Source of the DNA: Calditrichota bacterium
GTDB lineage: Bacteria > Calditrichota > Calditrichia > RBG-13-44-9 > J042
Length of the DNA stretch: 35,984 nucleotides
Direction: 5' to 3'
NCBI GenBank assembly: GCA_013150955.1
Contig: JAADJD010000031.1
Location: 1 to 35,984, forward strand
A program made the translations under genes and the position numbers. A model generated the notes under the pieces. It worked only from the letters and a program-made list of their open reading frames with translations. It was not told where the DNA came from and ran no database searches. Positions 4,325 to 21,226 of the stretch are shown piece after piece; the stretch's first letter is position 1; each line of letters opens with the position of its first letter.

Positions 4325-4368
4325 CCGCCGGCGCAGACTGATACAGAAGCGAATTTAATTAGCGGTTG

Positions 4369-7300
4369 ATGAGATTGAAGATTTTCAGGAAGAAAACTTA
4401 CTACCGACACCTCCTGCTGTTTGCCATTGCATTCAGCTTTACGCAACTCGAAGCCCAGGGATTACGGGCTCCCGATGCCCCGCCAGGAGTGGTTTCGGTA
4501 ACTGTCCCCGTTTATAAGGGCCTGCAACGCTTTTTCGTGGATTCCACCCTTTTTCAAAGTAACTTCTCCAAATTTCGTCGCATTTTGGCTTTCGATTCTT
4601 CTCAACAGTACGTTGACATTCGCGAAACCTTATTCGGTCATGATTTTCTGCTGCCCATCCGCATGCCGCTGGAAGATTATGTGCGCGCGCAGTTGAATTT
4701 CCGGAATCAGGAGAACCTGCGCAATTCCGTGCTCAAATATCTACAGCGGGTTGTCCAGCGCGGAGGCGGCGGAATTGAATTAAACATCCCGGTGCGGATT
4801 AAAAGCAAGGCCTTCAAGCGCATCTTTGGTGGCGATCAGGTGGGATTGACCGTTTCGGGAAATATTTCTTTCGAATTGTCCGGTCGAACCGAAAGCCGTT
4901 CGGGATCGGCTGTATCTGCCTACGAGCAGCGGAACACCTTCAGCCCCAAATTCCGCCAGACGCAGCAATTCAATGTACAGGGACGCGTGGGCGATAAGGT
5001 TCGGGTGTCGGTGGATCAAAACAGCGAGGCTACCTTCGATTTTGAGAATACCCTGCGTCTCACTTACGATGGCGATGAGGACGAAATCATCCAGAAGATT
5101 GAAGCCGGTAACGTTTCCCTGAATCTCCCGTCCACCAATTACGTGTCCATGAGTGCCCGTCATCAGGGATTGTTTGGCCTGAAGACCCAGATGAAGCTGG
5201 GAAATCTGAGCTTCATTGGAATTGCCAGTCTCCAGCGGGGCGAAAAACAAAAACTTTCCATCACCGGGGCGGCCGAGGAAAACACCTATCGCATCAAAGA
5301 TATTGATTACGTTCGGGATCGCTTCTTCTTTGTGGATTCCATTTATTACGAGCTGTTCGAAAATTTTGACGATCGCATGCGCTGGGTGCAGGTCAGCGAG
5401 GATCTCAAGATTGTTCAGCTGGACGTCTGGCGCAGCGCCCGACCCACCGACTACGATCGCCAGGGCTACGCGGTGGTGAATCCCGAAGACTATCCCGATA
5501 TCCAGAATCTGGAATTGCAGGACATTCCCGGCAAAATTGAAACCGGGTTTTTTAAGCGACTGGAATATGGCCGGGATTACGATTACGACGAGAACCGGGG
5601 CTTTTTCTGGCTGAATGAACAGGTGAACGAACAGGACGTGATTGCCATTGCCTACCAGACGGCCGGGGGCTTCAAACGGGGCATGCTGTTTCAGGAGCTG
5701 CCTCAGGATTCCACCGCCAAGGTTTTGCTGAAGCTCATCAAACCACGGGCTTCCAAACCGGAATACAAGTCCACTTGGAAACTGGCCATGCGCAATGTGT
5801 ACAACCTGGGGGCGTCCGGCATTCCGCGAGAAGGCTTTGATGTGAAGATCATCTACTCGGTGACCGGGGAGGATCAGGAAATCGATCCCACCTACAAGTT
5901 GCCATTCAATTACCTGATGGGATTGGATCGCATTAACGAACAGGGCGACCCGGTAGAGGGTGGGGATAAAAAAGTGGACATTGCCAACGGCTGGGTATTC
6001 GATCTGGGGAACGGATATTTGATCTTTCCATCCACCACACCATTTGCTCCCAAACCCGGTAGCAAGTTTGCGTTCGATTCTACCCTGTATGTGGATATTT
6101 ACAACATCAAAGACCGAACCCTGGAACGCACCCGCCACAAATTTGAAATTGCCATTACCACCAGTTCCGTTTCCACATCCTACAATCTGGGATTTAATGT
6201 GCTGGAAAATTCGGTGGTGGTGCGGGTAAACGGACGGGAATTGAAGGAGAAAACCGGGTACATCATCGATTATTTCAGTGGAAAGCTGGAAATCATTGAT
6301 CCCGAAGCCCGCCGTGCCGATGCCCAGATTGAAATTGAATACGAACGGGGATCGCTGTTTCAGCTGGATAAGAAGACCCTGCTGGGTGGGCGCCTGGAAT
6401 ACGATCTGGGCGAAGGCAAATTTATCGGATTGACCGCTTTGTACTATAATCAGTCCACCCTGGATCAGCGCATTCGCATTGGCCAGGAACCCATTCGAAA
6501 CTTTATCTGGGACATTAACACCGCGTTCAATTTTAAACCCAACTTCATCACCAAAGCGCTGGACAAGCTCCCAATTGTGGAGACCTCTGCGGAATCCAAG
6601 TTGAAGCTGGAAGCCGAATATGCCCAGGTCAATCCCAATCCCAACACGTTTAACGAACCCCGTCTGGGAGAGAAGAGCGGTGTGGCCTACATCGATGACT
6701 TTGAGGGGAGCAAGCGGTCAACTCCGCTGGGGGTGAACTACCGCAACTGGAGTTTCGCCTCCATCCCCGCGCGCTTCCGAATTGTCAGCCGGGGCATCGA
6801 CCACGGGGAGATCAACACCTACGATTACGAGGAAATGCTGCGCTGGGATAAGGCGCGGGTCAAGATGAACTGGTACAATCCCTTCGAGCCGGTACCCATT
6901 AAGGAAATCTGGCCGAACAAGGATGTGAATGCCCAGACCGGAACCACCACCCAGGTCTTGAACATTCGCTGGGTAAATTACGATACCCCGGTGGACAGCG
7001 CCTGGGCCGGGATCATGCGCAGCACCATTGCGTTTCCGGATCAGAAAAAGACCAAGTACATTGAATTATGGGTGCGTGGGGATGTCGGTCAAATTAACAT
7101 TGACATTGGGCGGATTAGCGAGGACTACTGGATCCGGGGAACCAATCATCTGGGACAACCCTCTTTTGGCAATTTGAACACCGAAGACGTGAACCTGAAC
7201 GATCTGCTGGATGAGGGGGAGGATGTGGGCATTGACGGGATACCGGATGGGCAGCCCGGTGATGATCCGGAGGATAATTTTGTGGCGCCCCAGGATGCGG

Positions 7301-10300
7301 TGAAAATGGGATTGCCCGATCCCTTCTGGCGCATCAACGGTACGGAGGGGAATGGCGATCCCGAGAAGGGTGTGCAGGGGGTGCGGGCACCGGATACCGA
7401 GGATCTGGACGGCCGCGGCAATCTGGATATTTTTAACGATTATTTCGAATACAACATCGATTTGTCGGATCCCTACCATCCCTACATTCAGGGGGCCACG
7501 GAAAAGGGCTGGAAGCAGTATCGTATCCCCATTCGCAATTACGATTTCAAGGTTGGGTCGCCGGATACCACGTTTCAGGAAATTTTCTACGTGCGGTTGT
7601 GGATTAACAATCTGGAACCGGATGGCCAGCCGCACGTCATTCAGATCGCCACCTTTGATTTTGTGGGGAACGAGTGGGAAGAAAAGGGCATGGCCACCAG
7701 CGACACCTCGAAGTTTGTGCTGAGCGATAGCCTTTTCATCCTGTCCGTTTACAATACGGAAGAGAATGCGGAGTCCCCCAAGCCGGAGGTTGAGCCGTAT
7801 CATTCGCCCCCCAATGTGACCGGGATTCGGGATCGGATTACCCGTGCCCTGTCCAAGGAACAGTCGCTGGTGATGCAGTTGAAATATTTACCGGTCGGAG
7901 GTGTTGCCGAGGCCAAGAAGCAGCTGATTGACAAGATCAACCTGCTGTACTATCGGCGGATGAAGATGTTTGTGCACGGGGACTGGTCGCTGCCGGAGGA
8001 AAATTCGCCGCTGGAGTTCTACATCCGCTTTGGCCCCACGGAGGATATTTATTACGAATACGGAGAGAGGGTCTATCCCCACTGGGACAAACGCAATAAC
8101 ATCGACATTATTTTTGACGAATTGACCCGTACCAAGCAACCCCAGTATCTGCTGCCAGATTCCCTGAATGGGAAACCGGTGTACTACCGGGAAGATCCCA
8201 ATTTCCCCGGCAAGTACATGAAGGTGGTCGGCAAGCCCAGTTTACACAACATCAACTTTTTTGTGATTGGTGCGCGCAACGTGGGCGATACCGATTTGCG
8301 GGATATCGAGATCTGGCTGGATGAATTGCGGGTCACCGATGTGGAACGGGAAAGCGGAGTGGCCATGCGCATGCGAGCGGATTTGAATCTGGCCGATGTG
8401 GGGCGGATTTCCGCGCAGATGGAGCTGGTGGACGACAACTTTCGCAAGCTGGAACAAAAATACGCTTCCGAGCGGGGCACCGATATGACCCGCGAAAACC
8501 AGTTGTACAACTTCAACCTGAATCTGCACAAATTTTTGCCCTCCAGCTGGGGATTTAACATTCCGATTTTCGCGAAATATCAGCGGAATCAGCGCATTCC
8601 AAAATATTACTACAATAGCGATCGCCGAACCTTTTACCGCCCGAACAATATTCTGGATCGTCTGAAGACGTTTGTGGGGTTAACGGAGCTATCCCCGGAG
8701 TTAAAGGAGAATTCCACCATCACGCAGTCGCGTTCCATTGGGGTGTCATTTTCCCGGCGGGGGCGTAAGCGGGATCCCTGGTACCTGCGCTACACGCTCA
8801 ACCAGGTCAAGCTGGACATGGATTATGTGGAGAAGAACAGCAGCAGTCCAACCGTGCTGCTGAACAACGGTACCAATCTAACCGGAAAATTTTCTTACAG
8901 CATCAATTTCTCCAATAAGAATTTCATTCAGCCCTTTTCCTGGTTGGGGAAAAGCCGCTGGGTACGTGCGCTGAGTCGACAGAAATTTTACTACACACCG
9001 TCCAATATCAGCGTCAATGCCAGCATTGTGGATCGCGCGGAAATTAAACAGAACCGTCTGGAGGTGAAAAGAACGGAGACCATTCGTACCAATACTTCAC
9101 GCCAGTTCAACATGAACTATAAGGTCTTCGAGAGCCTCAAGTTCGATTTCCGCCGCGCCTATCAGAGCGATGCGTATTTGAAGGGCTATCGGGCGAAGGA
9201 TGTGCTCAAGGCCATTTTCAACAATTTTGACTTTGGGGTGGACAAAACCATTTCGCAGCGATTCAACGTGAATTATCAGCCGCGGTTCTTTTCCTGGTTA
9301 AACACCACCTTCCGCTATTCGTCCGATTTCAACTACAACCTGATCAATCCCAAGACCAACGATCGCATGTCTCGCCTGAATGTGAACAAACAGATGAGTT
9401 TCAACCTGTCGCCATTTAATCTGGCCATCAAATTGTACAAGCCCAAGGCCAAGGGAACATCGACCCGGAAAGGGCGGGGGAAGGCCTCCACCCGCGGCGC
9501 GCCGCGACGGCATGCCAGAGATGAGGAACAAAAGGGCGGGAAAGGGAAGAAAACCGACCAGGCCAAAGAGGATGTTGAGGGCGAAAAGAAAAAAGTGCGC
9601 CGGGAACCCCCGAAACTGCCCATTCCCAATCCGGCAATCTTGTTGTGGAAGATGATGAATTCCTGGAAGTCGCTGCGGCTGGATATTCAGCAGACGGAGA
9701 ATTACCAGCATTATAATCTGGAACGCATGCCGGTCTGGCGCTATCAGCTGGGATTGCAATCGGATCCGCAGGCCGGGGTGGATACCACCTTCCGCAAGAT
9801 TCCCCGCCTGCCCACCCTGCGTATCAGTCGAAAAGTGACCTTTGGATCCCAGTTTAATTTTGGAAACAAGTTTAAAGCCAATTTCAACTATACCTACAAT
9901 CGGGATCAATCCCAGACCAACCAGCAGAATACGGTGCGGATTTCCAGCGGTTACTTCTTTACCGGGGACGATCCGGAGAAAAACAAAGACGGCTGGTGGT
10001 CGCTGGTGCCCGACTGGACGTTTCAGCTGAGCGGACTGGAGAAGTTTCTGTTCTTTAGCAAGTTTGCCAAGACCATTACGGTGGAACATTCGCGCAATGG
10101 AAAATTTAACGAGGCGGCGCGCCTGAATAACGGGGAGTATTTCCGCGATCAGTGGAGCTATTCCAACAGCTACCAGCCGTTTCTGGGGGTGACCATCAAC
10201 ACCAAATGGGGGATGAACGTCAACATCCGGTATGCCAGTACCCGGAACTTTAGTTACAACGCCACCGGTGCCGTAACGTTGAATGAGCAGGGATCGTTTG

Positions 10301-10623
10301 ATGCGTCTGCCACCTATTCGGTGCGCAAGGGATTCCGCCTGCCACTGCCTTTTCTAAGCAAAAAGCGCCTGAAGAATGAAGTGCAGTTTACCCTGACCTT
10401 TACCAATAACAGCAGCCGTACGCTGACCAAGCGCCCCGGAAGCGATAAGTTCCTGGAGCTATCGGTAAACAAGAACTGGAAGATCCGGCCATCGGCCAGT
10501 TACCGCTTTAGTGCCAAGGTGAACGGCTCCGCCTTCTTTGAAAAGGGCGTGGCGTATAACAAACGTACCGGGAAATATTCGTATCTGGAATTTGGGATCA
10601 ATGTGAACATTGCCATCCGCTGA
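4369..10623 (+). CDS. sprA: T9SS outer-membrane translocon SprA (Sov)
   Basis: SprA is the giant outer-membrane beta-barrel (36 strands in Flavobacterium) through which type IX cargo crosses; PorV caps its lateral opening. The protein is 2084 residues, slightly shorter than typical homologues. A signal peptide (1-29) ends TQLEA before Gln30. Family landmarks are the N-terminal module with ATFDFENTLRLTYDG and IQKIEAGNVSLNLP (about residues 220-265), and GVAYIDDFEGSKRSTPLG (about 773-790). The C-terminal half is rich in alternating aromatic strands. Residues 1691-1749 form a Lys/Arg/Glu-rich insert. ATG 4369 is preferred to TTG 4366, and an in-frame stop lies just upstream. The nearby glutaminyl-cyclase-like, PorV-like and cargo genes fit this role. 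Confidence 0.95.
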   Translation: MRLKIFRKKTYYRHLLLFAIAFSFTQLEAQGLRAPDAPPGVVSVTVPVYKGLQRFFVDSTLFQSNFSKFRRILAFDSSQQYVDIRETLFGHDFLLPIRMPLEDYVRAQLNFRNQENLRNSVLKYLQRVVQRGGGGIELNIPVRIKSKAFKRIFGGDQVGLTVSGNISFELSGRTESRSGSAVSAYEQRNTFSPKFRQTQQFNVQGRVGDKVRVSVDQNSEATFDFENTLRLTYDGDEDEIIQKIEAGNVSLNLPSTNYVSMSARHQGLFGLKTQMKLGNLSFIGIASLQRGEKQKLSITGAAEENTYRIKDIDYVRDRFFFVDSIYYELFENFDDRMRWVQVSEDLKIVQLDVWRSARPTDYDRQGYAVVNPEDYPDIQNLELQDIPGKIETGFFKRLEYGRDYDYDENRGFFWLNEQVNEQDVIAIAYQTAGGFKRGMLFQELPQDSTAKVLLKLIKPRASKPEYKSTWKLAMRNVYNLGASGIPREGFDVKIIYSVTGEDQEIDPTYKLPFNYLMGLDRINEQGDPVEGGDKKVDIANGWVFDLGNGYLIFPSTTPFAPKPGSKFAFDSTLYVDIYNIKDRTLERTRHKFEIAITTSSVSTSYNLGFNVLENSVVVRVNGRELKEKTGYIIDYFSGKLEIIDPEARRADAQIEIEYERGSLFQLDKKTLLGGRLEYDLGEGKFIGLTALYYNQSTLDQRIRIGQEPIRNFIWDINTAFNFKPNFITKALDKLPIVETSAESKLKLEAEYAQVNPNPNTFNEPRLGEKSGVAYIDDFEGSKRSTPLGVNYRNWSFASIPARFRIVSRGIDHGEINTYDYEEMLRWDKARVKMNWYNPFEPVPIKEIWPNKDVNAQTGTTTQVLNIRWVNYDTPVDSAWAGIMRSTIAFPDQKKTKYIELWVRGDVGQINIDIGRISEDYWIRGTNHLGQPSFGNLNTEDVNLNDLLDEGEDVGIDGIPDGQPGDDPEDNFVAPQDAVKMGLPDPFWRINGTEGNGDPEKGVQGVRAPDTEDLDGRGNLDIFNDYFEYNIDLSDPYHPYIQGATEKGWKQYRIPIRNYDFKVGSPDTTFQEIFYVRLWINNLEPDGQPHVIQIATFDFVGNEWEEKGMATSDTSKFVLSDSLFILSVYNTEENAESPKPEVEPYHSPPNVTGIRDRITRALSKEQSLVMQLKYLPVGGVAEAKKQLIDKINLLYYRRMKMFVHGDWSLPEENSPLEFYIRFGPTEDIYYEYGERVYPHWDKRNNIDIIFDELTRTKQPQYLLPDSLNGKPVYYREDPNFPGKYMKVVGKPSLHNINFFVIGARNVGDTDLRDIEIWLDELRVTDVERESGVAMRMRADLNLADVGRISAQMELVDDNFRKLEQKYASERGTDMTRENQLYNFNLNLHKFLPSSWGFNIPIFAKYQRNQRIPKYYYNSDRRTFYRPNNILDRLKTFVGLTELSPELKENSTITQSRSIGVSFSRRGRKRDPWYLRYTLNQVKLDMDYVEKNSSSPTVLLNNGTNLTGKFSYSINFSNKNFIQPFSWLGKSRWVRALSRQKFYYTPSNISVNASIVDRAEIKQNRLEVKRTETIRTNTSRQFNMNYKVFESLKFDFRRAYQSDAYLKGYRAKDVLKAIFNNFDFGVDKTISQRFNVNYQPRFFSWLNTTFRYSSDFNYNLINPKTNDRMSRLNVNKQMSFNLSPFNLAIKLYKPKAKGTSTRKGRGKASTRGAPRRHARDEEQKGGKGKKTDQAKEDVEGEKKKVRREPPKLPIPNPAILLWKMMNSWKSLRLDIQQTENYQHYNLERMPVWRYQLGLQSDPQAGVDTTFRKIPRLPTLRISRKVTFGSQFNFGNKFKANFNYTYNRDQSQTNQQNTVRISSGYFFTGDDPEKNKDGWWSLVPDWTFQLSGLEKFLFFSKFAKTITVEHSRNGKFNEAARLNNGEYFRDQWSYSNSYQPFLGVTINTKWGMNVNIRYASTRNFSYNATGAVTLNEQGSFDASATYSVRKGFRLPLPFLSKKRLKNEVQFTLTFTNNSSRTLTKRPGSDKFLELSVNKNWKIRPSASYRFSAKVNGSAFFEKGVAYNKRTGKYSYLEFGINVNIAIR

Positions 10624-10889
10624 TGATGGGTAAAAAGCGAGAATCCGGTTTAACCGCAGGAAGAATCGTTGTATATTTGAGAGATGAACGACTGCAGAGC
10701 ACTCACGAGGGACGATACACGATTCAGCAGGAGATGGCAAAAAATTATCCCCCATGGAGGGGTTGGGGGAACGCTGAAAAGGAAACAATGCGTGTTGACG
10801 GATGATGGAATCTTTTACCGAATGTTGGGTGTTTGTGTGGATGCGTTTTAAGAATCAAGAATGGTGATCAGGAAAGGAATGGTTCAGTG

Positions 10890-11807
10890 GTGAAAACGAT
10901 CTTCCAGGTTTTGCTGGTGCTGGTCGCCGGAATCGGTGACATCCCGGCCGAACCACCCCCGCGTTTTGATGCGCAGAGCGCCTGGCAGTATCTGGTCAAA
11001 CAGGTGGCTTTTGGCCCCCGAAATCCGGGTTCGCCTGGACACAGGCAGTGCCTGCAATTTTTGAAAACCGAGTTGCAGAAATTCGCCGATCAGGTGATTG
11101 AGCAACCGTTCATGCATTACGACGCCTATCGCGGCAAAACGCTGGTGATGACCAATCTAATCGCCCGGTTTCGTCCCAATGTGGAGCCGCGCATCCTATT
11201 GTGTGCCCACTGGGACACCCGGCCATTTGCGGATCGTGATCCCAATCCTGCCAATCGGCAAACGCCCATTCCGGGAGCAAACGATGGGGCCTCCGGGGTG
11301 GCCGTGCTGCTGGAAGTGGCGCGCATTCTGAAACAACAGCCACCGCCCATCGGCGTGGACATCGTTTTGTTTGATGGTGAGGATTATGGCCGGGAAGGCC
11401 ATCTGGAGGAATATTTTCTGGGATCCCGCTATTTTGTCCAGAACAACGATCGCTACTTCCCGGCATTTGCCATTTTGCTGGATATGGTGGGAGATGCCAA
11501 CCTTCAGCTACCGCGGGAAGGGTTTTCCGTGATGTATGCGCCGGAGGTGGTGGATCGGGTCTGGCGAATTGCGCGGGAGATGGGCTATTCGCAATTTGAA
11601 GATCGGATCGGTCTGCAGGTGAATGACGATCACGTGATTCTGAACGAAGGGGGAATCCCGACGATCAACATCATCGATTTCCAGTATCCCGATGCCTCAC
11701 ATCGGTTCTGGCACACGCTGCAGGATGTGCCGGAAAATTGCTCCCCGGAAAGCCTGAAGGTGGTTGGCGATGTGCTGCTGAAATTAATTTATGAGGAACC
11801 GCTATGA
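10890..11807 (+). CDS. M28-family glutaminyl-peptide cyclotransferase-like protein
   Basis: Probably converts N-terminal Gln of exported proteins to pyroglutamate, in the periplasm. From GTG 10890 the protein is 305 residues, starting MKTIFQVLLVLVAGIG, a signal-peptide-like segment ending DIPA. An AGGAAAGG lies about a dozen bases upstream; GTG 10887 and GTG 10833 are alternatives. Single-zinc M28 features are AHWDTRPFADRDP, GANDGASGVAVLLE (zinc Asp), VLFDGEDYG (catalytic and zinc acids) and HRFWHTLQDVPENCSPESL (zinc His), the last being typical of glutaminyl cyclases. It follows sprA by 267 bp and overlaps prmA by ATGA. Four predicted exported proteins in this window begin with Gln after cleavage, which suits this activity. 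An M28 aminopeptidase is the alternative. Confidence 0.8.
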   Translation: MKTIFQVLLVLVAGIGDIPAEPPPRFDAQSAWQYLVKQVAFGPRNPGSPGHRQCLQFLKTELQKFADQVIEQPFMHYDAYRGKTLVMTNLIARFRPNVEPRILLCAHWDTRPFADRDPNPANRQTPIPGANDGASGVAVLLEVARILKQQPPPIGVDIVLFDGEDYGREGHLEEYFLGSRYFVQNNDRYFPAFAILLDMVGDANLQLPREGFSVMYAPEVVDRVWRIAREMGYSQFEDRIGLQVNDDHVILNEGGIPTINIIDFQYPDASHRFWHTLQDVPENCSPESLKVVGDVLLKLIYEEPL

Positions 11808-12673
11808 GCCGGCGCACCTATCTGGAATGCCACATTCCCTTACAGGGCTTCGATCCCGATGTGTTGTCCGGATTGCTGTATTTGTACGGCTGCATGGGCA
11901 TTCTGGAAGCCGGTGAAGAATGGGTGGTCTATTTTCCAGAAGCATTCACTCCAGAACATATTCAGGTACTGCTGGGGGTGTTACGGCGGGTTAATCCCGA
12001 TTTTCACCCGGAGCAGTGCCAGGTACAGAAGCAGCCTTACCGGGATTGGAACGCGGAGTGGCGAAAATATTTTCGACCTTTTCAGCCGGTGGAGGGAATC
12101 TGGATTCGACCGCCCTGGGAGCGATTGCCCGCAGGAGCCTCCGGAGTGGAGCTGATCATCGATCCCCAGATGGGCTTTGGCACCGGCCATCACGAATCCA
12201 CCCGCCTGATGATTCAGGCGCTTAAAAAATATCCCCCGCGAGACCTGAAAGTCCTGGACGTGGGCACCGGTTCGGGGATTCTGGCCATACTGGCCCGGAA
12301 ACTGGGCGCCCGGCAGGTGATTGCGGTGGATATCGACCGCGACGCCCTGAAAAACGCCCGCGAAAATCTGGTCTTGAATGGCGTGGATGGAGTGGAGCTT
12401 CGCAATGGTAGTTTGCAGGTGGTGCCGGAACGCCAGTTCGACCGGATTCTGGCCAACATTCATCGCGAGGTGTTGCTGGAGCTGTTGCCGGGATTTATGC
12501 AGCGGTTGCAACCGGAAGGCTGGTTGATTATTTCCGGCATTTTAAAACAGGATCGGGATCTGGTATTGCCCGCTTACCAGCAGGCGGGTTTACATTTGAT
12601 AGAAGAATTGTCCGCCAATGAATGGCTGGCACTGATCTGGGCCAGACAGCAAATTCAGGGGGTACAGAATTGA
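11804..12673 (+). CDS. prmA: ribosomal protein L11 methyltransferase
   Basis: S-adenosylmethionine-dependent methylation of lysines and the N-terminus of ribosomal protein L11, in the cytoplasm. The 289-residue length is normal. An N-terminal substrate-recognition domain (about 1-95) ends with DWNAEWRKYFRP. It is followed by DPQMGFGTGHHESTRLM (about 125-141), the SAM-binding VLDVGTGSGILAI (about 150), VIAVDIDRDALKNARENL and the ANIHREVL active-site loop. Its ATG overlaps the upstream stop as ATGA, and its own TGA overlaps the TTG start of the next gene, so the three are probably translationally coupled. A housekeeping gene inside an envelope operon is unusual but the identification is firm. 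Confidence 0.95.
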   Translation: MSRRTYLECHIPLQGFDPDVLSGLLYLYGCMGILEAGEEWVVYFPEAFTPEHIQVLLGVLRRVNPDFHPEQCQVQKQPYRDWNAEWRKYFRPFQPVEGIWIRPPWERLPAGASGVELIIDPQMGFGTGHHESTRLMIQALKKYPPRDLKVLDVGTGSGILAILARKLGARQVIAVDIDRDALKNARENLVLNGVDGVELRNGSLQVVPERQFDRILANIHREVLLELLPGFMQRLQPEGWLIISGILKQDRDLVLPAYQQAGLHLIEELSANEWLALIWARQQIQGVQN

Positions 12674-13620
12674 GCCCGTCCCGTTACGCCAGTATTGACA
12701 TCGGTACCAATTCCGTGCTATTGCTGGTGGCGGATCTGAAAGCAAATCGACTGGAGAGGGTGTACGAAGCCTTTCGAGTCACCCGATTGGGTGAGGGCGC
12801 GGTGACCACCGGTCGGCTTCAGCCCACACCCATGGCACGCACCCTGGAGGTGTTGCGCCATTACGTTCAGAAGGCGAAGGAACTCGGGGCGGAACACATC
12901 GTGGCCACCGGGACTCAAATTTTCCGTCAGGTAAAAAATGCCGATGCCTTCCTTCGCCAGGTGGAGCAAGAACTGTCCCTGTCCGTTCGCATCCTGACGG
13001 AAACGGAAGAAGCAGTACTGACCTTTCTGGGAGCGCTGGATAGCTGTCCGTCCCCGCTGGAGCGCGTCTGGGCCATCGATATTGGTGGCGGAAGTACAGA
13101 GTTGATTTTTGGCAACCGACAGCAGATTGATTTCCACCGCAGTTTTCCGGTGGGGGGTGTGCAGTTGAAAACAACATTTCAAACGGGAGAACGGCTGGAT
13201 CCTTCCACCGTGGATCGAATGCGGCAGTACCTGGCGGAGCAGCTGCAGGGGCTGACGCCGACCACCCGGCAGGGCATTTTACTGGGGATTGGTGGAACCA
13301 TCACCACCCTGGCAGCGGTGGATCAGTCGCTACCGCAGTACGAATTCGAAAAGATAGACGGATATGCCCTGACGGTGGAGCGCATCCGGGAGTTGTTCGA
13401 ACGGTTCAATGCACTGTCCCTGGCTGAGCGGGAACAATTGCCGGGAATGGAAAAGGGTCGGGCAGACATTATATTACCGGCAACGTTAATTTTGCTACAG
13501 GCGATGGATCAGCTGGGTATTTCCCGTTTGATCGTAAGTGCCCGCGGATTGCGCTATGGGGTCATCCTGTGGCAGGTGGGGCAGGTAAATATTCAACACA
13601 TGGTGGGAGAACACACATGA
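12670..13620 (+). CDS. Ppx/GppA family phosphatase
   Basis: Exopolyphosphatase or pppGpp phosphohydrolase of the ASKHA (actin/hsp70-like ATPase) fold, affecting polyphosphate or stringent-response levels. The protein is 316 residues, about the size of short two-domain Ppx/GppA proteins without the C-terminal HD domain of E. coli Ppx. Nucleotide-fold motifs are ASIDIGTNSVLLLVADL at the N-terminus, AIDIGGGSTELIFG (about 135-148) and GIGGTITTLAAV (about 205). The start is inferred as TTG 12670 in a TTGA overlap with the prmA stop, because the family motif begins seven residues later; a reading from GTG 12622 would add 16 unlikely residues. The next gene overlaps its stop by ATGA. Ppx and GppA activities cannot be told apart here. 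Confidence 0.9.
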   Translation: MSPSRYASIDIGTNSVLLLVADLKANRLERVYEAFRVTRLGEGAVTTGRLQPTPMARTLEVLRHYVQKAKELGAEHIVATGTQIFRQVKNADAFLRQVEQELSLSVRILTETEEAVLTFLGALDSCPSPLERVWAIDIGGGSTELIFGNRQQIDFHRSFPVGGVQLKTTFQTGERLDPSTVDRMRQYLAEQLQGLTPTTRQGILLGIGGTITTLAAVDQSLPQYEFEKIDGYALTVERIRELFERFNALSLAEREQLPGMEKGRADIILPATLILLQAMDQLGISRLIVSARGLRYGVILWQVGQVNIQHMVGEHT

Positions 13621-14747
13621 AACACATGGGCTGGTGGATGATTCCACTATTGATCTTTTTATTTTTCTGGGGATGTGCCGAACAAATGGGGCCCGAAGAA
13701 GAATCCCCGCCATTTTCGATCGAGCCGTTTAAGGTACCCGATTTAATCACCGTGCGGCCGGGTTACGTGTATTTTCTGGCGTTTCGGGTGCAGCATCCCG
13801 ATGGATGGGAGGCCATCGATTCCGTCTGGGTCACCTTCTCTGAATCGCCGCAGGCACCACCGCTGGGAACATTACCCTTGTTTGATGATGGGGCCACCCG
13901 CCATCCCGATGATGGCGATGTGGTGGCAAGAGATGGAATTTTTAGCAATCGTTTTTATCCCGCCCGAATGGGCCTGCCCGCCCGCACATTAATTCTGCAG
14001 GCCTTTGCCCGCGATCAGAATGGAAATGTGCAATCTGTTGACAATCTGGAGATTACTGGCACCGATAACTATCCGCCGGTCATTCTGCATATTTCTGTGC
14101 CGGATACTTTTTATGCGGGCACGCCTGGAATGATCTTTCAGGCCACGGTGGCGGACAGCGATAGCGTGAACGATGTCGTGGCGGTGATCATGCAGGGACT
14201 GCAAAATTCCGTGGTGGTATTTCAGGATACCCTTCGGCGGGATCCACAGCAACCCAATCGGTTTCTGCTGATTCGGGATTCTTCCTTTGCCGCCGAGAAG
14301 CAGAAAGAATACCTGCTGGAATTTTACGCGCTGGATCACCAGATCCCCAGCCTGAACCGTCTGCAGGCAGGGATATATATTGAAAACGAGCCGCCTGTGA
14401 TTCGATCCATTGAACTGCCCGATAGTGTGAAACTTCCGGCAGTGGATCGGGAGCTGATTACCGTTCGGGCGCGCGTGGTGGATTCCCAGAGCCTGGCGGA
14501 TATTCAACGGGTGTACTTTACCGTGAAACGCATCGGCAGTAACGAGACCAACGAAGTGGAATTATACGACGATGGCAATATGGTCGATAACGGCGATCTG
14601 CTGGCCGGCGATGGGATCTTTTCCCGAATCATCGTGCTGTTGAGTACCAATACCCCCGGCGATTATGTGTTCACTTTTTATGCGATCGATCGGGTGCAGC
14701 AAATGGCCACCACGGTGGTGGATACCTTGAAGGTGTTACCAAATTAA
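13617..14747 (+). CDS. putative lipoprotein with paired DDG...GDGIFS modules
   Basis: A 376-residue predicted exported protein. The N-terminus MKHMGWWMIPLLIFLFFWGC is a lipoprotein-like signal with Cys20 as the putative acylated residue; the lipobox FWGC departs from the consensus LAGC. The rest reads as Ig-like or cadherin-like beta domains. Two similar motifs, LFDDG...GDVVARDGIFS (about 88-111) and LYDDG...GDLLAGDGIFS (about 316-337), mark two copies of one module, possibly Ca-binding given the dense Asp/Asn/Gly. Its ATG overlaps the Ppx/GppA stop (ATGA), and a T9SS cargo gene follows after 26 bp. A surface or envelope structural role is inferred from context; no enzymatic motif is seen. 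Confidence 0.7.
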   Translation: MKHMGWWMIPLLIFLFFWGCAEQMGPEEESPPFSIEPFKVPDLITVRPGYVYFLAFRVQHPDGWEAIDSVWVTFSESPQAPPLGTLPLFDDGATRHPDDGDVVARDGIFSNRFYPARMGLPARTLILQAFARDQNGNVQSVDNLEITGTDNYPPVILHISVPDTFYAGTPGMIFQATVADSDSVNDVVAVIMQGLQNSVVVFQDTLRRDPQQPNRFLLIRDSSFAAEKQKEYLLEFYALDHQIPSLNRLQAGIYIENEPPVIRSIELPDSVKLPAVDRELITVRARVVDSQSLADIQRVYFTVKRIGSNETNEVELYDDGNMVDNGDLLAGDGIFSRIIVLLSTNTPGDYVFTFYAIDRVQQMATTVVDTLKVLPN

Positions 14748-14773
14748 CTTCTGGAAATGGGTGGAGAACGGAT

Positions 14774-16264
14774 ATGCAGGATAGATTCCAAAAATGGGTG
14801 GGTGTGACCATTCTGATGTTCGGGATGGTTGCATCGGTATTGGCGCAACAAATTTTGCAGTACCAATTGCAGGGATCTCCGGATCGGAAGGGGATCATCG
14901 GTAATGCCATTACCGATCTGTTGTACCACGATGGACGGTTGCTGGTGGGAACCGGTTACGGGTTGAGCATGACCGGGGATAATGGTGAAACCTGGATCAG
15001 CTGGGGGCCAGCGGAGTATGGGGGAAAAGGCGGGGTATCCGCCATGGCCGTTGCCGAGGATGGTACCATCTGGATTGCTACGGCGTACGATTCCACCATT
15101 GACGGCAATGACTTGCAGGTGGGTGGGGGATTGCGGTACCTTCCCCCGGGCAGTGATCAATGGATTTTCGTTCCCCAGCCAGTAGATGCCCGGGACGATA
15201 CCGCGGGCGGGAAAAAGCCCACCACCACCCGGGTGCAGAATGTGACCTTCGACATCGCCATTCTGGATACCCAGATCTGGATTGCCAGCTTCGGTGGAGG
15301 CATCCGGCGCTCTCTGGATGGCGGGCAAACCTGGGAGGTCATCACAACCGATGGGAAGCCCTTCGGTGCATTGCAATATTTGAATCACCGTGGATTTTCA
15401 GTCATGGCCGAGAATGGAAACATCTGGGTGGGCACGGCCGACGGCATCAGCAAATCCACCGACGGTGGCAAGACCTGGGTGCGCTTTACGCATCAGAACC
15501 AGGGGCAGCCCATTTCCGGGAACTGGGTAATTGCCCTGGCCCACAATCCTTACGATAACAGCGTGTGGGCGGCCACGCTCCGTGCCGAAGATCCGGATGA
15601 ATTCAATGCCATTAGCCGTACAAAAAACGGTGGATTGACCTGGGAGGTGTTCCTGGCCGAGGAATTAGCCGATGGGAGTTTTCCCCGCTACATTGCTTTT
15701 TACGATTCGGTGGTGTACGTGGCTACCGAAAACGGGGTGTACAAATCCATCGATGATGGGCAGACCTGGTATAAACTCCCACCGATTGTGGATAGCGTGA
15801 CCGGGGAGGCCATTTTAACTAACACCTACTATTCGGTGGCGACTTCGCCAGCACCACCGCCGTTTCATTATCTCTGGGTGGGCTCCAGCGATGGACTGGC
15901 CATGACCCCGGACAATGGCAACACCTGGACAATCTTCCGGAGTTTTGTCAGCACCCGGGAACGCACCGATCCCCCGGTTTACGCCTATCCCAATCCGTTT
16001 TCTCCCCTGCGTCATGAATTTGTGCGCTTTCAGTTCGATATTGCCAGCGCCACCACCGTAACCATCGAGATATTCAATTTTGCGATGGAGAAAGTGGTGA
16101 CCTTGCAGGAGTCGCTGGCAGCGCCACAGGGGGGATCCTTCGATCGTTCCATTCGCTGGGATGGCCGCGATAGCAATCGGCGGATGGTGGATAACGGGGT
16201 GTACTTTTTCCGGGCCCGGGTCGGCGATCGGGTAAGCTGGGGGAAGATCGTGATCATCAATTGA
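14774..16264 (+). CDS. secreted BNR/Asp-box beta-propeller with T9SS sorting domain
   Basis: A 496-residue exported protein. The signal peptide ends SVLA at residue 24, leaving Gln25-Gln26 as the N-terminus. Six Asp-box-type motifs (DNGETW about 69, DGGQTW about 182, DGGKTW about 230, NGGLTW about 285, DDGQTW about 327, DNGNTW about 379) indicate a six- or seven-bladed propeller of the sialidase/Ycf48/sortilin type. No sialidase catalytic residues are evident. From about 403 (YPNPFSPL) to the end is the FlgD-like or T9SS sorting domain, with the NGVYFFRARVGD and WGKIVIIN ending. It lies 26 bp after the lipoprotein and 116 bp before a PorV-like gene, consistent with one envelope operon. Ligand unknown. 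Confidence 0.85.
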   Translation: MQDRFQKWVGVTILMFGMVASVLAQQILQYQLQGSPDRKGIIGNAITDLLYHDGRLLVGTGYGLSMTGDNGETWISWGPAEYGGKGGVSAMAVAEDGTIWIATAYDSTIDGNDLQVGGGLRYLPPGSDQWIFVPQPVDARDDTAGGKKPTTTRVQNVTFDIAILDTQIWIASFGGGIRRSLDGGQTWEVITTDGKPFGALQYLNHRGFSVMAENGNIWVGTADGISKSTDGGKTWVRFTHQNQGQPISGNWVIALAHNPYDNSVWAATLRAEDPDEFNAISRTKNGGLTWEVFLAEELADGSFPRYIAFYDSVVYVATENGVYKSIDDGQTWYKLPPIVDSVTGEAILTNTYYSVATSPAPPPFHYLWVGSSDGLAMTPDNGNTWTIFRSFVSTRERTDPPVYAYPNPFSPLRHEFVRFQFDIASATTVTIEIFNFAMEKVVTLQESLAAPQGGSFDRSIRWDGRDSNRRMVDNGVYFFRARVGDRVSWGKIVIIN

Positions 16265-16380
16265 ACGGAAGAAGGAGGAATGGCCCCTGGTCTGTCCCGA
16301 TCAGAAGGTACATGTCGTTGCCGTGTTGCAGGACGTTCGAATGAAGGAAATGGTTGAATCAAATGTACAGAGGTGAAGTC

Positions 16381-17373
16381 TTGAAACGTTTACGAATGAT
16401 GGGTTTGGGCTGGTTGATGATGGTTTTCATTCTGGGAACGGTTCCGGCGCTGGCCGGCGGAAATGGCGGCTTTGCCGGTGCTTATTTACGCATTGGTCTG
16501 GGAGCCCCGGGAATGGCCATGGGCAACGCTCAGGTTGCCATGGTGGGCAATGGGTTTTCCGGTTATTACAATCCCGCGGTGCTCCCATTCCTGACCAATC
16601 CCGTCGCCAGCCTGTCCTACAGCTTCATGTCGCTGGATCGCCGATTTAATTATGTGGGATATGCGCGGTCACTGCCCCCACGCGGGGGATTTTCCATCGG
16701 GTGGATTTACAGCGGGGTGGACAATATCCGTGCCTACAATTCTCGCGGCGAAGATGTGGGAGAAATCCTGCATGGACTGCACGCAGTGTACTTCTCTTTT
16801 GGGCTAAAAATTCCCACGCCACTGGATCAGGACGTCACGGGAGATGGCTCCGGTTTGCAGGTGCTGAGCTTTGGTATCTCCCTGAAATTGTTGTACGAGC
16901 GCATTAGCGATGGAGAGGAGTTTAACTACTCCGGTAAAGGGGCGGGCATGGACATTGGCGTGTTGTTCCATCCCCTGAAATCCCTCTGGCTGGGGTATCA
17001 AATTCGGGATATCAACTCCAAGTTGAAATCCAACACCAATACCATCTTTGAACGCGGCTCCGTGCTGGACAATGCCTTTCCGCTCATCCAGAAGGCGGGC
17101 ATTGCCTGGCAGCTGCCGGTAAACTGGCTGCGGCTGGCTTATGACTTCGAATGGAGCACGGCCGGTCAGGAGAAGCATCACTTCGGGTTGCTGGCAGAGG
17201 GTCGTGGACTGGCGGCACGTGCCGGCTGGGATGACGGCCGCCTGACACTGGGGGGCGGCATGCAGGTGCGGGTCTACAAATCAGTGGTGGTATTATTGGA
17301 CTATGCCTTTGTGGATGACCTGGTGGGAGAAGGCGTTTCGCATGTCTTCTCCTGGCAGTTTTTATTTAAATAA
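16381..17373 (+). CDS. PorV/PorQ family outer-membrane protein
   Basis: Homologues are FadL-like beta-barrels that shuttle T9SS cargo from SprA to the attachment machinery. The protein is 330 residues from TTG 16381, which follows GAGGTGA at proper spacing; TTG 16354 and ATG 16363 have no such site and would bury the signal peptide. The signal ends VPALA at residue 25. The family signature is the opening YLRIGLGAPGMAMGNAQVAM and YYNPAVLPFL, followed by a barrel of alternating strands ending in FSWQFLFK (terminal aromatic-rich strand). The new N-terminus is Gly, not Gln. It closes the operon that begins with the glutaminyl-cyclase-like gene. Whether it serves cargo shuttling (PorV) or another role (PorQ or PorP-like) is open. 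Confidence 0.8.
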   Translation: MKRLRMMGLGWLMMVFILGTVPALAGGNGGFAGAYLRIGLGAPGMAMGNAQVAMVGNGFSGYYNPAVLPFLTNPVASLSYSFMSLDRRFNYVGYARSLPPRGGFSIGWIYSGVDNIRAYNSRGEDVGEILHGLHAVYFSFGLKIPTPLDQDVTGDGSGLQVLSFGISLKLLYERISDGEEFNYSGKGAGMDIGVLFHPLKSLWLGYQIRDINSKLKSNTNTIFERGSVLDNAFPLIQKAGIAWQLPVNWLRLAYDFEWSTAGQEKHHFGLLAEGRGLAARAGWDDGRLTLGGGMQVRVYKSVVVLLDYAFVDDLVGEGVSHVFSWQFLFK

Positions 17374-17408
17374 GGGACGATCGGATTTGCCTTTTGTGCC
17401 GGGTGAAT

Positions 17409-17575
17409 AAACCCTGATTATGCATTAGATCACGAATTACACGAATTAACACAAAAAATAAAACCCATTGGATTGTATCTGGGTGAAAATTTGTTTCCGG
17501 GTTTATTTGGAATTTTGTGGATGTTTTTGGTTTCATTCGCGTGATTCGTAGTTTACCGTATTATTTGGGATAAAA
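17409..17575 (+). repeat. MITE-like repeat, copy C (reference copy)
   Basis: The cleanest single copy, about 167 bp. Its left end (AACCCTGATTATGCATTAG, then CACGAATTACACGAATTAACAC) is the approximate inverse complement of its right end (TTCATTCGCGTGATTCGTAG, then TTTACCGTATTATTTGGG). The interior is AT-rich with CCCATTGGATTGTATCTGGG. No open reading frame. It ends 44 bases before the next start codon. Confidence 0.85.
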
Positions 17576-17618
17576 GGAAAAATCGAGTAACGGACAGAAG
17601 CAACAGAAAGGAGTCACA

Positions 17619-18536
17619 TTGAGGTCAGGAATGCGGTGGATCCATATATGGGGAATGATTGTGGGGATCGGGATCGGCCTGCTGGTTGCCGGAGAAGCCG
17701 GCCAGACCGGTCTGCCATTTTTGAAAATTGGTGTGGGTGCCCCGGCTGCCGGGATGGGCAATGCCTACACCGCGGTGGCGTCCGATGCGTTTGCCACTTA
17801 CTGGAATCCCGCTGGCTTAATGGCTGCCCGGAGCGGCAACGTGGTGTTTACCCATACCAACTGGTTATTCGATGCGATCAGCGAGTTTGCTGCCTGGCAG
17901 GTGCGAGGACAGCAATCCAGTGTTGCACTTCATTTGTACACTTTTTACGTGGGGCAAATTCCCGTGCGGCTGATCCCCAGTGACCAGCCGCTGGCCACCA
18001 CCAACGCTCAATATCTGTCGGGGGGAATCTCCTATGCGCGAAACCTCCGTCCCCACCTGGCCCTGGGCGTTACCCTGAAATATTTGTATGAAAAAATTTA
18101 TGTGGAAACTGCCACCGGTTGGGCGCTGGATGTGGGTGTGCGCTATCAGATGCCGGGCCATCCGCTGGTACTGGCGGCGACCCTGCAGCACCTGGGGAAA
18201 ATGAACGCCCTGCTATCCCGGGCCAGTCGCCTGCCCACCGTGTTACGCGCCGGGATTGCCTATCAGCCGGATGTGGCCGTGGGCCCGGCTAAATTTCAAC
18301 TGGCCGTGGATGGCCTGCGCTACTGGAGCGGCTCCTGGAAGCTGAACAGCGGTCTGGAAGTGAAGCTGTGGCGTCAGCTGGCCCTGCGGGCCGGATATCT
18401 GCTGGGCTACGATGACCGCTCGCTGGGATTCGGATTCGGTTTCCAGAAAGCCACCCTCCGCTTCGATTATAGCTTCAACCCCTTTGGAGCGGGACTGGGA
18501 GAGGTACACCGGTTTTCCATGTTTCTGGCGCTGTAA
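17619..18536 (+). CDS. second PorV/PorQ family outer-membrane protein
   Basis: Paralogue of the protein at 16381-17373, 305 residues. TTG 17619 follows AAAGGAG by five bases; ATG 17631 is a possible alternative but is too far from that site. A hydrophobic signal segment covers residues 8-24, and Gln29 follows LLVAGEAG. The diagnostic start of the mature protein is LPFLKIGVGAPAAGMGNAYTA and ASDAFATYWNPAGL. The rest alternates as beta-strands, with LKYLYEKIY and a final barrel strand ending MFLAL. A dispersed repeat separates it from the upstream operon, so it probably has its own promoter or depends on read-through. The two paralogues may serve different cargo or assembly steps. Confidence 0.85.
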   Translation: MRSGMRWIHIWGMIVGIGIGLLVAGEAGQTGLPFLKIGVGAPAAGMGNAYTAVASDAFATYWNPAGLMAARSGNVVFTHTNWLFDAISEFAAWQVRGQQSSVALHLYTFYVGQIPVRLIPSDQPLATTNAQYLSGGISYARNLRPHLALGVTLKYLYEKIYVETATGWALDVGVRYQMPGHPLVLAATLQHLGKMNALLSRASRLPTVLRAGIAYQPDVAVGPAKFQLAVDGLRYWSGSWKLNSGLEVKLWRQLALRAGYLLGYDDRSLGFGFGFQKATLRFDYSFNPFGAGLGEVHRFSMFLAL

Positions 18537-19144: not shown

Positions 19145-19506
19145 TTAACCCGGATGATGCGTTAGACCACGAATGACACGAATGAACACCAATAAAAATA
19201 ATAAACCCAGATTATGCATTAGACCACGAATGACACGAATTAACACAAATAAAATTAATAAAATAAATTGGGTAGTATCTGGATGAAAACTTGTTTTCGT
19301 GATTTATTCGTTATTTTGTGGATGTGTTTTGGTTTCATTCGTGTGATTCGCGGTTAAATGCATTTTTTGGGATAAAATGCACTGGATTCTATCTGGATGA
19401 GGATGTTTTCCCGGATATATTCGCTATTTTGTTGATTTTTTCGAATGCATTCGCATGATTCGCGGTTTCATGCATTATTTGAGTTTAGTCCATATTTTGG
19501 GATAAA
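19145..19506 (+). repeat. MITE-like repeat, copy D (nested/tandem)
   Basis: At least two and a half units in the same orientation: a left-end fragment from 19145, a full unit from about 19203 to 19377, and a further unit lacking its left end to 19506. It fills the whole gap between the DUF296 gene and aceK and ends only eight bases before the aceK ATG. Confidence 0.8.
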
Positions 19507-19513
19507 CAGAGAG

Positions 19514-21226
19514 ATGAAGCAAACGGCTTATCAGGGAGCAACCGCCATTTTCGAAGCGTTCGACGCGTTTCATCAGCAATTTAAAGCCATTACTGCCCGG
19601 GCGCGGAAACGCTTTGAACAGCGAGATTGGGCTGGTGCCCGTGCCGACGCCATGGAACGGCTGGATTTGTACACCCGTTCGGTGCAGCAAATCGAGTGGC
19701 ATATCCGGCAGTTGATGAATGGAAAGGTGCGGGAGACGGACTTATGGGCGATCATGAAGGCCCGCTATTCCGAATTAATCGCCGGAAGGAACGATGTGGA
19801 ACTGGCGGAAACGTTCTTCAACTCGGTCACCCGACGGATTTTTTCCACCGTGGGTGTCAATCCCCGAATCGAGTTTGTGGATTCCGATTTTGAGCGCATG
19901 TTGTCCCGGGCACCGTATCGATTGTATCGCAGCTATCCCTTTCAATTTTCACTGGAGGCCAATTTGCACCAGATCATTTCCGATTTTCAATTTCATGCCC
20001 CCTTTCGCGATCTGGATCGCAACCTGCATCTGGTGACCCGGGAATTGTTCCGCCAGTTAACCCGAAAGTCTGCCCTCCACAATGTACAGCGCTTCGAGAT
20101 CCTGGAAACCATGTTCTTCCGCCATCAGGAAGCCTACATCATCGGGCGCGTGATTTTGAAGGACGAGCAGATGCCCTTTGTGCTGGCCCTGTTAAACGAT
20201 CCGCAGGGCATCCGCATCGATGCCGTGCTGACCGACGTGGAAGATGTGAGCATCATTTTTAGTTTTACCCGATCGTATTTCCATGTCCAGACCGACTGGC
20301 CGCGGGATCTGGTGCTGTTTTTGAAGGCCATCATGCCGCATAAACCGCTATCGGAATTGTACAATGCGATTGGTTACCATAAGCATGGCAAAACAGAGCT
20401 GTATCGTGCGCTATTGCAGCATTTAAAATATTCTTCGGATCGCTTCCAGATCGCTCCCGGCGAAAAGGGCATGGTCATGCTGGTGTTCGACTTGCCCTCT
20501 TTTAACATCGTCTTCAAGGTCATCAAGGATCGATTTGCTTATCCCAAAACCACCAGTCGGGAGCAGGTGAAACAGAAATATCAGCTGGTGTTTAAGCACG
20601 ATCGGGTGGGGCGACTGGTGGACGCCCAGGAGTTTGAACATTTGAAATTCGATCGCTGGCGCTTCGATGAGCAGCTGCTCGGCGAAATGCGGGAAAATGC
20701 CACCAACAGCGTTGAGATTACCGATGACAGCGTGATCATTCATCACCTCTACACCGAGCGCAAGTTGACCCCGTTGAATTTGTATCTGGCCCGGGAGCCA
20801 TTCTGGAAGCAGGAAGCAGCGGTGCTGGATTACGGTCGGGCCATTAAAGATCTGGCGGCGGCGAATATCTTTCCCGGGGACATTTTTCTGAAAAATTTTG
20901 GCGTCACCCGGCATGGGCGGGTCGTGTTTTATGACTACGACGAATTGACCCTGTTGACCGATTGCCATTTCCGTAAAATTCCACCCGCTCGCTCTCCGGA
21001 GGATGAACTGGCCGATGAACCCTGGTTCCACGTGGGACAAAACGACGTCTTTCCCGAAGAATTTGCCACCTTTCTGGAACTTCGCGGGGATTTACGTCAG
21101 CTGTTTCTGGAACATCACGGCGAACTGCTGCAACTGGATTACTGGCTGGACATTCAACAGCGCATCCGCAATGGGGAGTTTATCAATGTGCTGCCCTATC
21201 CAGAAAGCAAACGGCTGAAATGGTGA
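19514..21226 (+). CDS. aceK: isocitrate dehydrogenase kinase/phosphatase
   Basis: Bifunctional enzyme that phosphorylates and dephosphorylates isocitrate dehydrogenase, setting the split between the TCA cycle and the glyoxylate bypass. The 570 residues compare with 578 in E. coli. The N-terminal regulatory domain includes RRIFSTVGVNPRIEFVDSDF and YPFQFSLEANLHQII. The kinase-like domain shows APGEKGMVMLVFDLPS (ATP-binding loop, about 313-328), FKVIKDRF, GDIFLKNFGVTRHGRVVFYD (about 456-475), then YDE and SPEDELADEPWFHVGQNDVFPEEF. ATG 19514 is the likely start, just after a repeat copy. Unlike enterobacterial aceBAK, no isocitrate lyase or malate synthase gene is next to it. AceK is known mainly from Proteobacteria, so transfer is possible. 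Confidence 0.95.
   Translation: MKQTAYQGATAIFEAFDAFHQQFKAITARARKRFEQRDWAGARADAMERLDLYTRSVQQIEWHIRQLMNGKVRETDLWAIMKARYSELIAGRNDVELAETFFNSVTRRIFSTVGVNPRIEFVDSDFERMLSRAPYRLYRSYPFQFSLEANLHQIISDFQFHAPFRDLDRNLHLVTRELFRQLTRKSALHNVQRFEILETMFFRHQEAYIIGRVILKDEQMPFVLALLNDPQGIRIDAVLTDVEDVSIIFSFTRSYFHVQTDWPRDLVLFLKAIMPHKPLSELYNAIGYHKHGKTELYRALLQHLKYSSDRFQIAPGEKGMVMLVFDLPSFNIVFKVIKDRFAYPKTTSREQVKQKYQLVFKHDRVGRLVDAQEFEHLKFDRWRFDEQLLGEMRENATNSVEITDDSVIIHHLYTERKLTPLNLYLAREPFWKQEAAVLDYGRAIKDLAAANIFPGDIFLKNFGVTRHGRVVFYDYDELTLLTDCHFRKIPPARSPEDELADEPWFHVGQNDVFPEEFATFLELRGDLRQLFLEHHGELLQLDYWLDIQQRIRNGEFINVLPYPESKRLKW

Follow-up and report, generated by a model that had tools for sequence, protein, structure and literature searches.

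A type II glutaminyl cyclase gene behind sprA and the Q-rule in Calditrichota

A 35,984-nucleotide stretch of DNA (the window), which is contig C10 of genome G000 (JAADJD010000031.1, assembly GCA_013150955.1; 4.07 Mb, 99.7% complete), carries a gene for a predicted type II glutaminyl cyclase (QC; animal-type, M28 fold) directly behind sprA, the gene for the outer-membrane translocon of the type IX secretion system (T9SS). The source is a member of Calditrichota, class Calditrichia, and thus lies outside Bacteroidota. Both genes are on the forward strand, sprA at 4366-10623 (TIGR04189, 822 bits against a cut-off of 200) and the QC gene at 10890-11807, within an open reading frame (ORF) that spans 10833-11807. 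The best start is the GTG at 10890, about 10 bases downstream of a purine-rich, Shine-Dalgarno-like GGAAAGG read by eye, and the frame is likewise open in the nearest relative, whose orthologue is 85% identical. A sequence-only reading of the window had put this gene between sprA and genes for T9SS cargo and PorV, and the order is as claimed, with a spacer that we count as 266 bases (10624-10889, forward strand). The spacer is shorter than this in most relatives, and a repeat element within it was rejected because the spacer is single copy in the genome.

The cyclase and its active site

Several lines of comparison place the protein among QCs. It matches the Pfam family M28 at E 6.7e-34, is 35-42% identical to solved Bacteroidota QCs, and gave phmmer E-values of 1e-68 to 1e-47 against bacterial QC structures, the matches to 3gux, 6qro (T. 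forsythia QC), 4fuu/7d1e (B. thetaiotaomicron QC) and 6qql (P. gingivalis QC) falling between 1e-68 and 1e-57. Its AlphaFold model (predicted local distance difference test score 91.7) aligns in Foldseek with 3tc8, 4fuu, 7d1e, 6qro and 6qql at template modelling scores of 0.85-0.92 and a root-mean-square deviation of about 2 Å, and every one of the best 50 matches is a QC or QC-like. The type II QCs of Fimbriiglobus ruber (7d1b) and Acidobacteriales (7d18) belong to the same fold family in this search but are more distant.

As published, QCs differ from two-zinc aminopeptidases in that the bridging zinc Asp is followed by Gly and not by Asn, the third ligand is an Asp, the zinc His is preceded by Trp, and the rim reads Arg-Pro..Asp (JBC 2021, PMC7948796). 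In aminopeptidases the residue next to the zinc Asp is Asn or Asp, and another residue at this position marks loss of the second zinc site (PMC7948796). The window protein has D132-G133, D165 as third ligand, W274 before H275 (WHT; the equivalent of PgTrp298) and the rim residues R111, P112 and D115. Its predicted zinc ligands D132, D165 and H275 and catalytic residues E164 and D198 have as equivalents PgAsp149, Asp183 and His299, and HsGlu201 and HsAsp248. Across an alignment of 31 sequences from about ten phyla, D132, D165, H275, R111, P112, E164 and D198 are invariant, and G133 and W274 are kept in more than 90%. The sequence-only reading had called the protein cyclase-like and named a modelled two-zinc site as the outcome that would speak against this; the predicted fold and residues instead fit the one-zinc QCs, the zinc count being deduced from the residues. 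Judged by its residues and model, the ORF encodes a type II glutaminyl cyclase and not an aminopeptidase.

The Bacteroidota enzymes PgQC (PG2157), TfQC and BtQC (6qql, 6qro, 7d1e) share with it the fold, the Asp/Asp/His ligands, the catalytic Glu and Asp, the Asp-Gly and Trp-His pairs and the Arg-Pro..Asp rim. Unlike them, the window QC has an SPI-type signal peptide (SPI, signal peptidase I) with no lipobox or lipoprotein Cys, lacks the insertion loop before the PgTrp193 position, and is encoded behind sprA; the lipoprotein anchor is common among Bacteroidetes QC orthologues and is not defining for type II QCs. Plant-type (type I) QCs, represented by PF05096, catalyze the same reaction on an unrelated beta-propeller fold, and none was detected in the window's genome.

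Glutamine at the mature N-terminus

Under the Q-rule, a large share of SPI substrates begin with Gln after cleavage (Gln+1). Q-values of Bacteroidetes average 71%, nearly all lying above 48%, and high values occur outside this group without a pattern, as in Ignavibacterium album (77%) and Chloroherpeton (55%) (Bochtler 2018, PMC5837995); a later paper termed the rule exclusive to Bacteroidetes (Szczesniak 2023, PMC10653852). We scored signal peptides with a custom three-region scorer, not SignalP, in which positions +1 and +2 carry no weight. It places the cuts of OmpA, MalE, LamB, Bla and PhoA correctly and supersedes two cruder scans that were noisy or too strict. Likely lipoproteins were removed before counting; samples comprise tens of proteins, and the count for the window genome comes from about 673 kb.

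Four Gln+1 sites had been proposed in the window. The scan places three of them, in a TonB-dependent receptor (31716-34073, forward strand, identified by Pfam; A↓Q20), in a T9SS cargo protein with a Por_Secre_tail domain (366-2411, minus strand; PF18962, 36.4 bits against a cut-off of 27; A↓Q24) and in an exported BNR beta-propeller protein (14774-16264, forward strand; A↓Q25). The fourth, Gln30 of SprA, is the least clear-cut, as the scan puts its preferred cut two residues further on (EAQG↓L), with LEA↓Q the alternative when read by eye; SprA of related genomes also carries Gln+1. As the sequence-only reading had also stated, Gln+1 is missing from the two PorV-like proteins (ALA↓GG, AG↓EA) and from the cyclase itself (IPA↓EPPP).

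Gln+1 was found in 13/32 predicted SPI substrates of the window genome, 12/21 of its relative G017 and 6/12 of other named Calditrichota. The positive controls gave 10/20 in Bacteroidota and 7/10 in Balneolota/Rhodothermota (jointly 17/30), and E. coli gave 2/23. Pooled over QC-carrying Calditrichota, Gln+1 occurs in 31/65 substrates versus 26/619 (4.2%) after internal [AVST]xA sites (p 2e-20), and Gln reaches at most 12 of 65 at any other position from -6 to +10. The secondary peak of 12 lies at -2, which suggests that some cuts were called two residues late and that 48% Gln+1 is a lower estimate. By these predicted cuts, the Q-rule extends to Calditrichota and is wider than Bacteroidota, as had been supposed, although the published Q-value of I. 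album (Bochtler 2018) had already shown part of this breadth. The pattern resembles that of Bacteroidetes (PMC5837995, PMC10653852) in covering a large share of SPI substrates from several export classes alongside a type II QC; it differs in its host phylum and in that five genera hold it with neither known QC type detected. Because TonB receptors, SprA and the QCs of relatives carry Gln+1, it is not a T9SS tag.

The anchor of the cyclase varies within the class, being lipoprotein-like at some loci (L012, L013, L025, L140) and SPI-secreted with its own Gln+1 at others (L014, L018-L022, L077). The SPI-type signal peptide prevails in most of family f5, and a lipobox-like Cys is found in family f6, in genome G002 and at the KSB1 locus L144. 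In many relatives the QC is itself a Gln+1 substrate, for example with the cut FA↓QFNGQRAF.

The sprA-cyclase locus across phyla

By tblastn of the flanks, all Calditrichia loci with QC that were retrieved from families f1, f3, f4, f5 and f6 have sprA directly upstream of it, and prmA follows QC wherever the contig reaches far enough. In family f2, with genomes of up to 8.6 Mb, QC is not next to sprA, and a plant-type QC is mostly present in addition. Of the 80 best named loci, 26 have sprA as the ORF immediately before QC, and these 26 come from at least seven phyla: Calditrichota, KSB1, Zixibacteria, Neomarinimicrobiota, Krumholzibacteriota, Latescibacterota and TA06, together with bins of doubtful or no phylum name. 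No clearly assigned Bacteroidota, Balneolota, Rhodothermota or Ignavibacteria locus among these 80 has sprA in this place, and several loci of the last three groups keep QC-prmA-ppx without sprA. Our literature search found no paper that connects T9SS with Calditrichota or Caldithrix, nor one that connects sprA with QC.

The further genes of the window locus, up to position 18536, all lie on the forward strand. prmA, for ribosomal protein L11 methyltransferase (11804-12673; Pfam PrmA, 1.1e-57), overlaps the end of QC by 4 bases in an order conserved among relatives, and is itself overlapped by a Ppx/GppA phosphatase gene (12622-13620; Pfam, 1.9e-57). Then come a predicted lipoprotein with lipobox FWGC and a choice-of-anchor X domain (13569-14747; NF041940), which has homologues at the same place in relatives, the BNR propeller protein, whose place in the order is kept in Calditrichota, KSB1 and Neomarinimicrobiota, a PorV-like outer membrane protein (16396-17373; PorV_fam, 62.3 bits, below the cut-off of 90) and a PorV-family outer membrane protein (17619-18536; NF033709, 150.9 bits, cut-off 90). 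The T9SS neighborhood proposed by the sequence-only reading stands for SprA, the minus-strand cargo and one PorV; the other PorV-like protein and the FlgD-like tail of the BNR protein score below cut-off. The BNR protein is a plausible T9SS cargo; it was rejected as PorZ, since a sequence search returned HCF136/Ycf48 propellers and no PorZ. The window also encodes AceK, isocitrate dehydrogenase kinase/phosphatase (19445-21226; Pfam, 9e-117), which is best known from Proteobacteria.

The block from the lipoprotein through the propeller with its FlgD-like tail to the two PorV-like genes (13569-18536) also stands behind QC elsewhere in Calditrichota and in KSB1 and Neomarinimicrobiota (loci L138, L139, L140, L165, L169, L177 and L179). 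As lipoprotein, propeller and PorV-like genes follow QC in Neomarinimicrobiota as in Calditrichota, the locus appears to be shared between them. The propeller protein of this conserved block may be a component of the T9SS rather than a cargo.

Besides SprA, the window genome carries the T9SS sortase PorU (849.8 bits, cut-off 420) and 77 matches to the sorting-domain family PF18962. Five Calditrichota genomes (G000, G017, G024, G026 and G028) each carry the PorU sortase and 76-128 sorting domains. The motor profile TIGR03517 (GldM/PorM) had no match in these five, and the control genomes gave none either; the motor of the Calditrichota system may be diverged or of another kind.

The linkage with sprA may reflect either joint expression of two components of an export pathway or an ancient gene order. 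That the adjacency is inherited and functionally unrelated to T9SS, the housekeeping genes prmA and ppx traveling along, has close to even chances in our estimation. It would account for the Ignavibacteria, Balneolota and Rhodothermota loci in which QC-prmA-ppx persists although sprA is not there, and it agrees with work in P. gingivalis arguing that T9SS export is not controlled by pyroglutamate and with the QC-lacking genomes G026 and G028, in which PorU still scores above cut-off and 76 and 101 sorting domains were detected. It fits less well with a pair that holds over at least seven phyla, including loci where prmA or ppx was not found beside it (L149, L160, L187), and with the locus of Calditrichota and Neomarinimicrobiota, whose other genes encode PorV-like and exported proteins.

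Loss of the cyclase and its proposed role in the Q-rule

We give a probability of roughly 0.8 to the reading that the exported type II QC acts in the periplasm to cap SPI clients at an N-terminal Gln. Cleavage by signal peptidase I would leave Gln as residue 1 of exported proteins, and QC would bind it through one zinc held by D132, D165 and H275. E164 and D198 would then shuttle a proton, releasing ammonia and forming pyroglutamate, which would shield the N-terminus against aminopeptidases. The clients would be the general SPI pool (TonB receptors, SprA, T9SS cargo) and not T9SS alone, with the enzyme encoded in a conserved locus of the order sprA-QC-prmA-(ppx)-lipoprotein-propeller-PorV-PorV. 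Family, active-site residues, predicted fold, Gln+1 enrichment, gene order and the repeated loss described below are all read from sequence. From these we infer the catalytic activity, the pyroglutamate, its stabilizing role and the periplasmic site.

Several observations weigh against this reading. The PgTrp193 position is Tyr175 in the window QC, the preceding loop being absent, and PgPhe294 has no clear counterpart; PgTrp193 has been described as conserved in bacteroidal QCs and not as required of all type II QCs (PMC7948796). Outgroups with one partner show little Gln+1, in small numbers: 0/9 in G051 (QC without SprA) and 1/7 in G042 (SprA without QC). QC and Gln+1 can also come apart. A QC profile matched 29 of all 40 Calditrichia genomes, and five genera of family f5 lack the gene cleanly: G025 (locus L056), G026 (L062), G028 (L067), G032 (L073) and G038 (L229). 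Their sprA-prmA gap is 28-81 bp with nothing in between, compared with 914-2129 bp where QC is present. Even so, 15/25 of their substrates carry Gln+1, which is not lower than the 31/65 of QC-carrying relatives (Fisher p 0.35), although G028 contributes 14 of the 25 and has 11/14 itself. No PF05096 match was found in G026 (97% complete), G028 (94%), G032 or G038, and no strong one in G025. On this sequence evidence, QC is not required for the Q-rule to persist, and QC and Gln+1 are separable.

Candidate substitutes in G025 were rejected. A search of the five genera for M28 proteins bearing the QC signature found none; all M28 proteins of G026, G028, G032 and G038 have at least 385 residues, and a divergent M28 protein of G025 (contig C29) has the Asp-Asn signature of aminopeptidases. 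The weak PF05096 match in G025 is, as read from the sequence, a propeller fused with a region that resembles transglutaminases, and its case is further weakened by weak matches in ORFs of similar length in G017 and other QC-carrying relatives. This protein (L059, 17198-18817) is exported, with the propeller, weakly like plant-type QC, at its N-terminal end and the transglutaminase-like region at its C-terminal end. Plant-type QC itself occurs in several Calditrichota, in families f2 and f3 and in G016, where QC is likewise missing (gap 204 bp) and the plant-type match is strong. The tree does not unite the five genera (five changes), a single clade not being rejected (approximately unbiased test, p 0.117); their terminal branches measure 0.6-1.1 changes per site. 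With G016 counted, there were at least two losses.

Because Gln+1 is kept without QC, it is independent of the known QCs in these genera, and a substitute cyclase, spontaneous cyclization or another reason maintains it. The same may apply more generally: Gln+1 would be kept by a third cyclase, by spontaneous cyclization or by a signal peptidase preferring Gln, and the sprA-linked QC would only speed or broaden the reaction. We regard this as a real possibility, though less probable than not. It draws on the undiminished Gln+1 share after long divergence and on the lack of PF05096 matches and of M28 proteins shorter than 385 residues in four of the five genera. It is opposed by the wide coincidence of type II QC with high Gln+1, by the essentiality of QC in P. 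gingivalis, where inactive enzyme does not rescue (Szczesniak 2023, PMC10653852), and by the fragmented state of the QC-lacking assemblies, in which a divergent or unassembled cyclase may exist and a single genome dominates the count. Far less probable still is that the window protein is an ordinary M28 aminopeptidase with no relation to Gln+1, since, despite the shared family and fold and the aminopeptidase annotations of 3tc8 and 4fuu, its Asp-Gly, WHT, third-ligand Asp and RP..D rim are all marks of QCs, and the true aminopeptidases of these genomes are distinct paralogues of greater length, the one read in G025 having Asp-Asn (AIDNGTG).

Capping by an exported cyclase remains our preferred account. 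What goes beyond earlier knowledge is the adjacency of sprA and QC across phyla and the clean loss of QC with Gln+1 retained. The link between the Q-rule and T9SS has so far been left as an unexplained coincidence; with QC directly behind sprA in at least seven phyla, their shared ancestry becomes testable. We suggest only tentatively that some Calditrichota keep the Q-rule without a known QC, by a third cyclase or by selection unrelated to cyclization, and that a common origin of the Q-rule and T9SS may predate Bacteroidota. The genera with clean QC loss and Gln+1 offer a natural knock-out for asking whether the cyclase underlies the rule. As QC is a drug target in P. gingivalis, bacterial life by the Q-rule without QC is relevant there as well.
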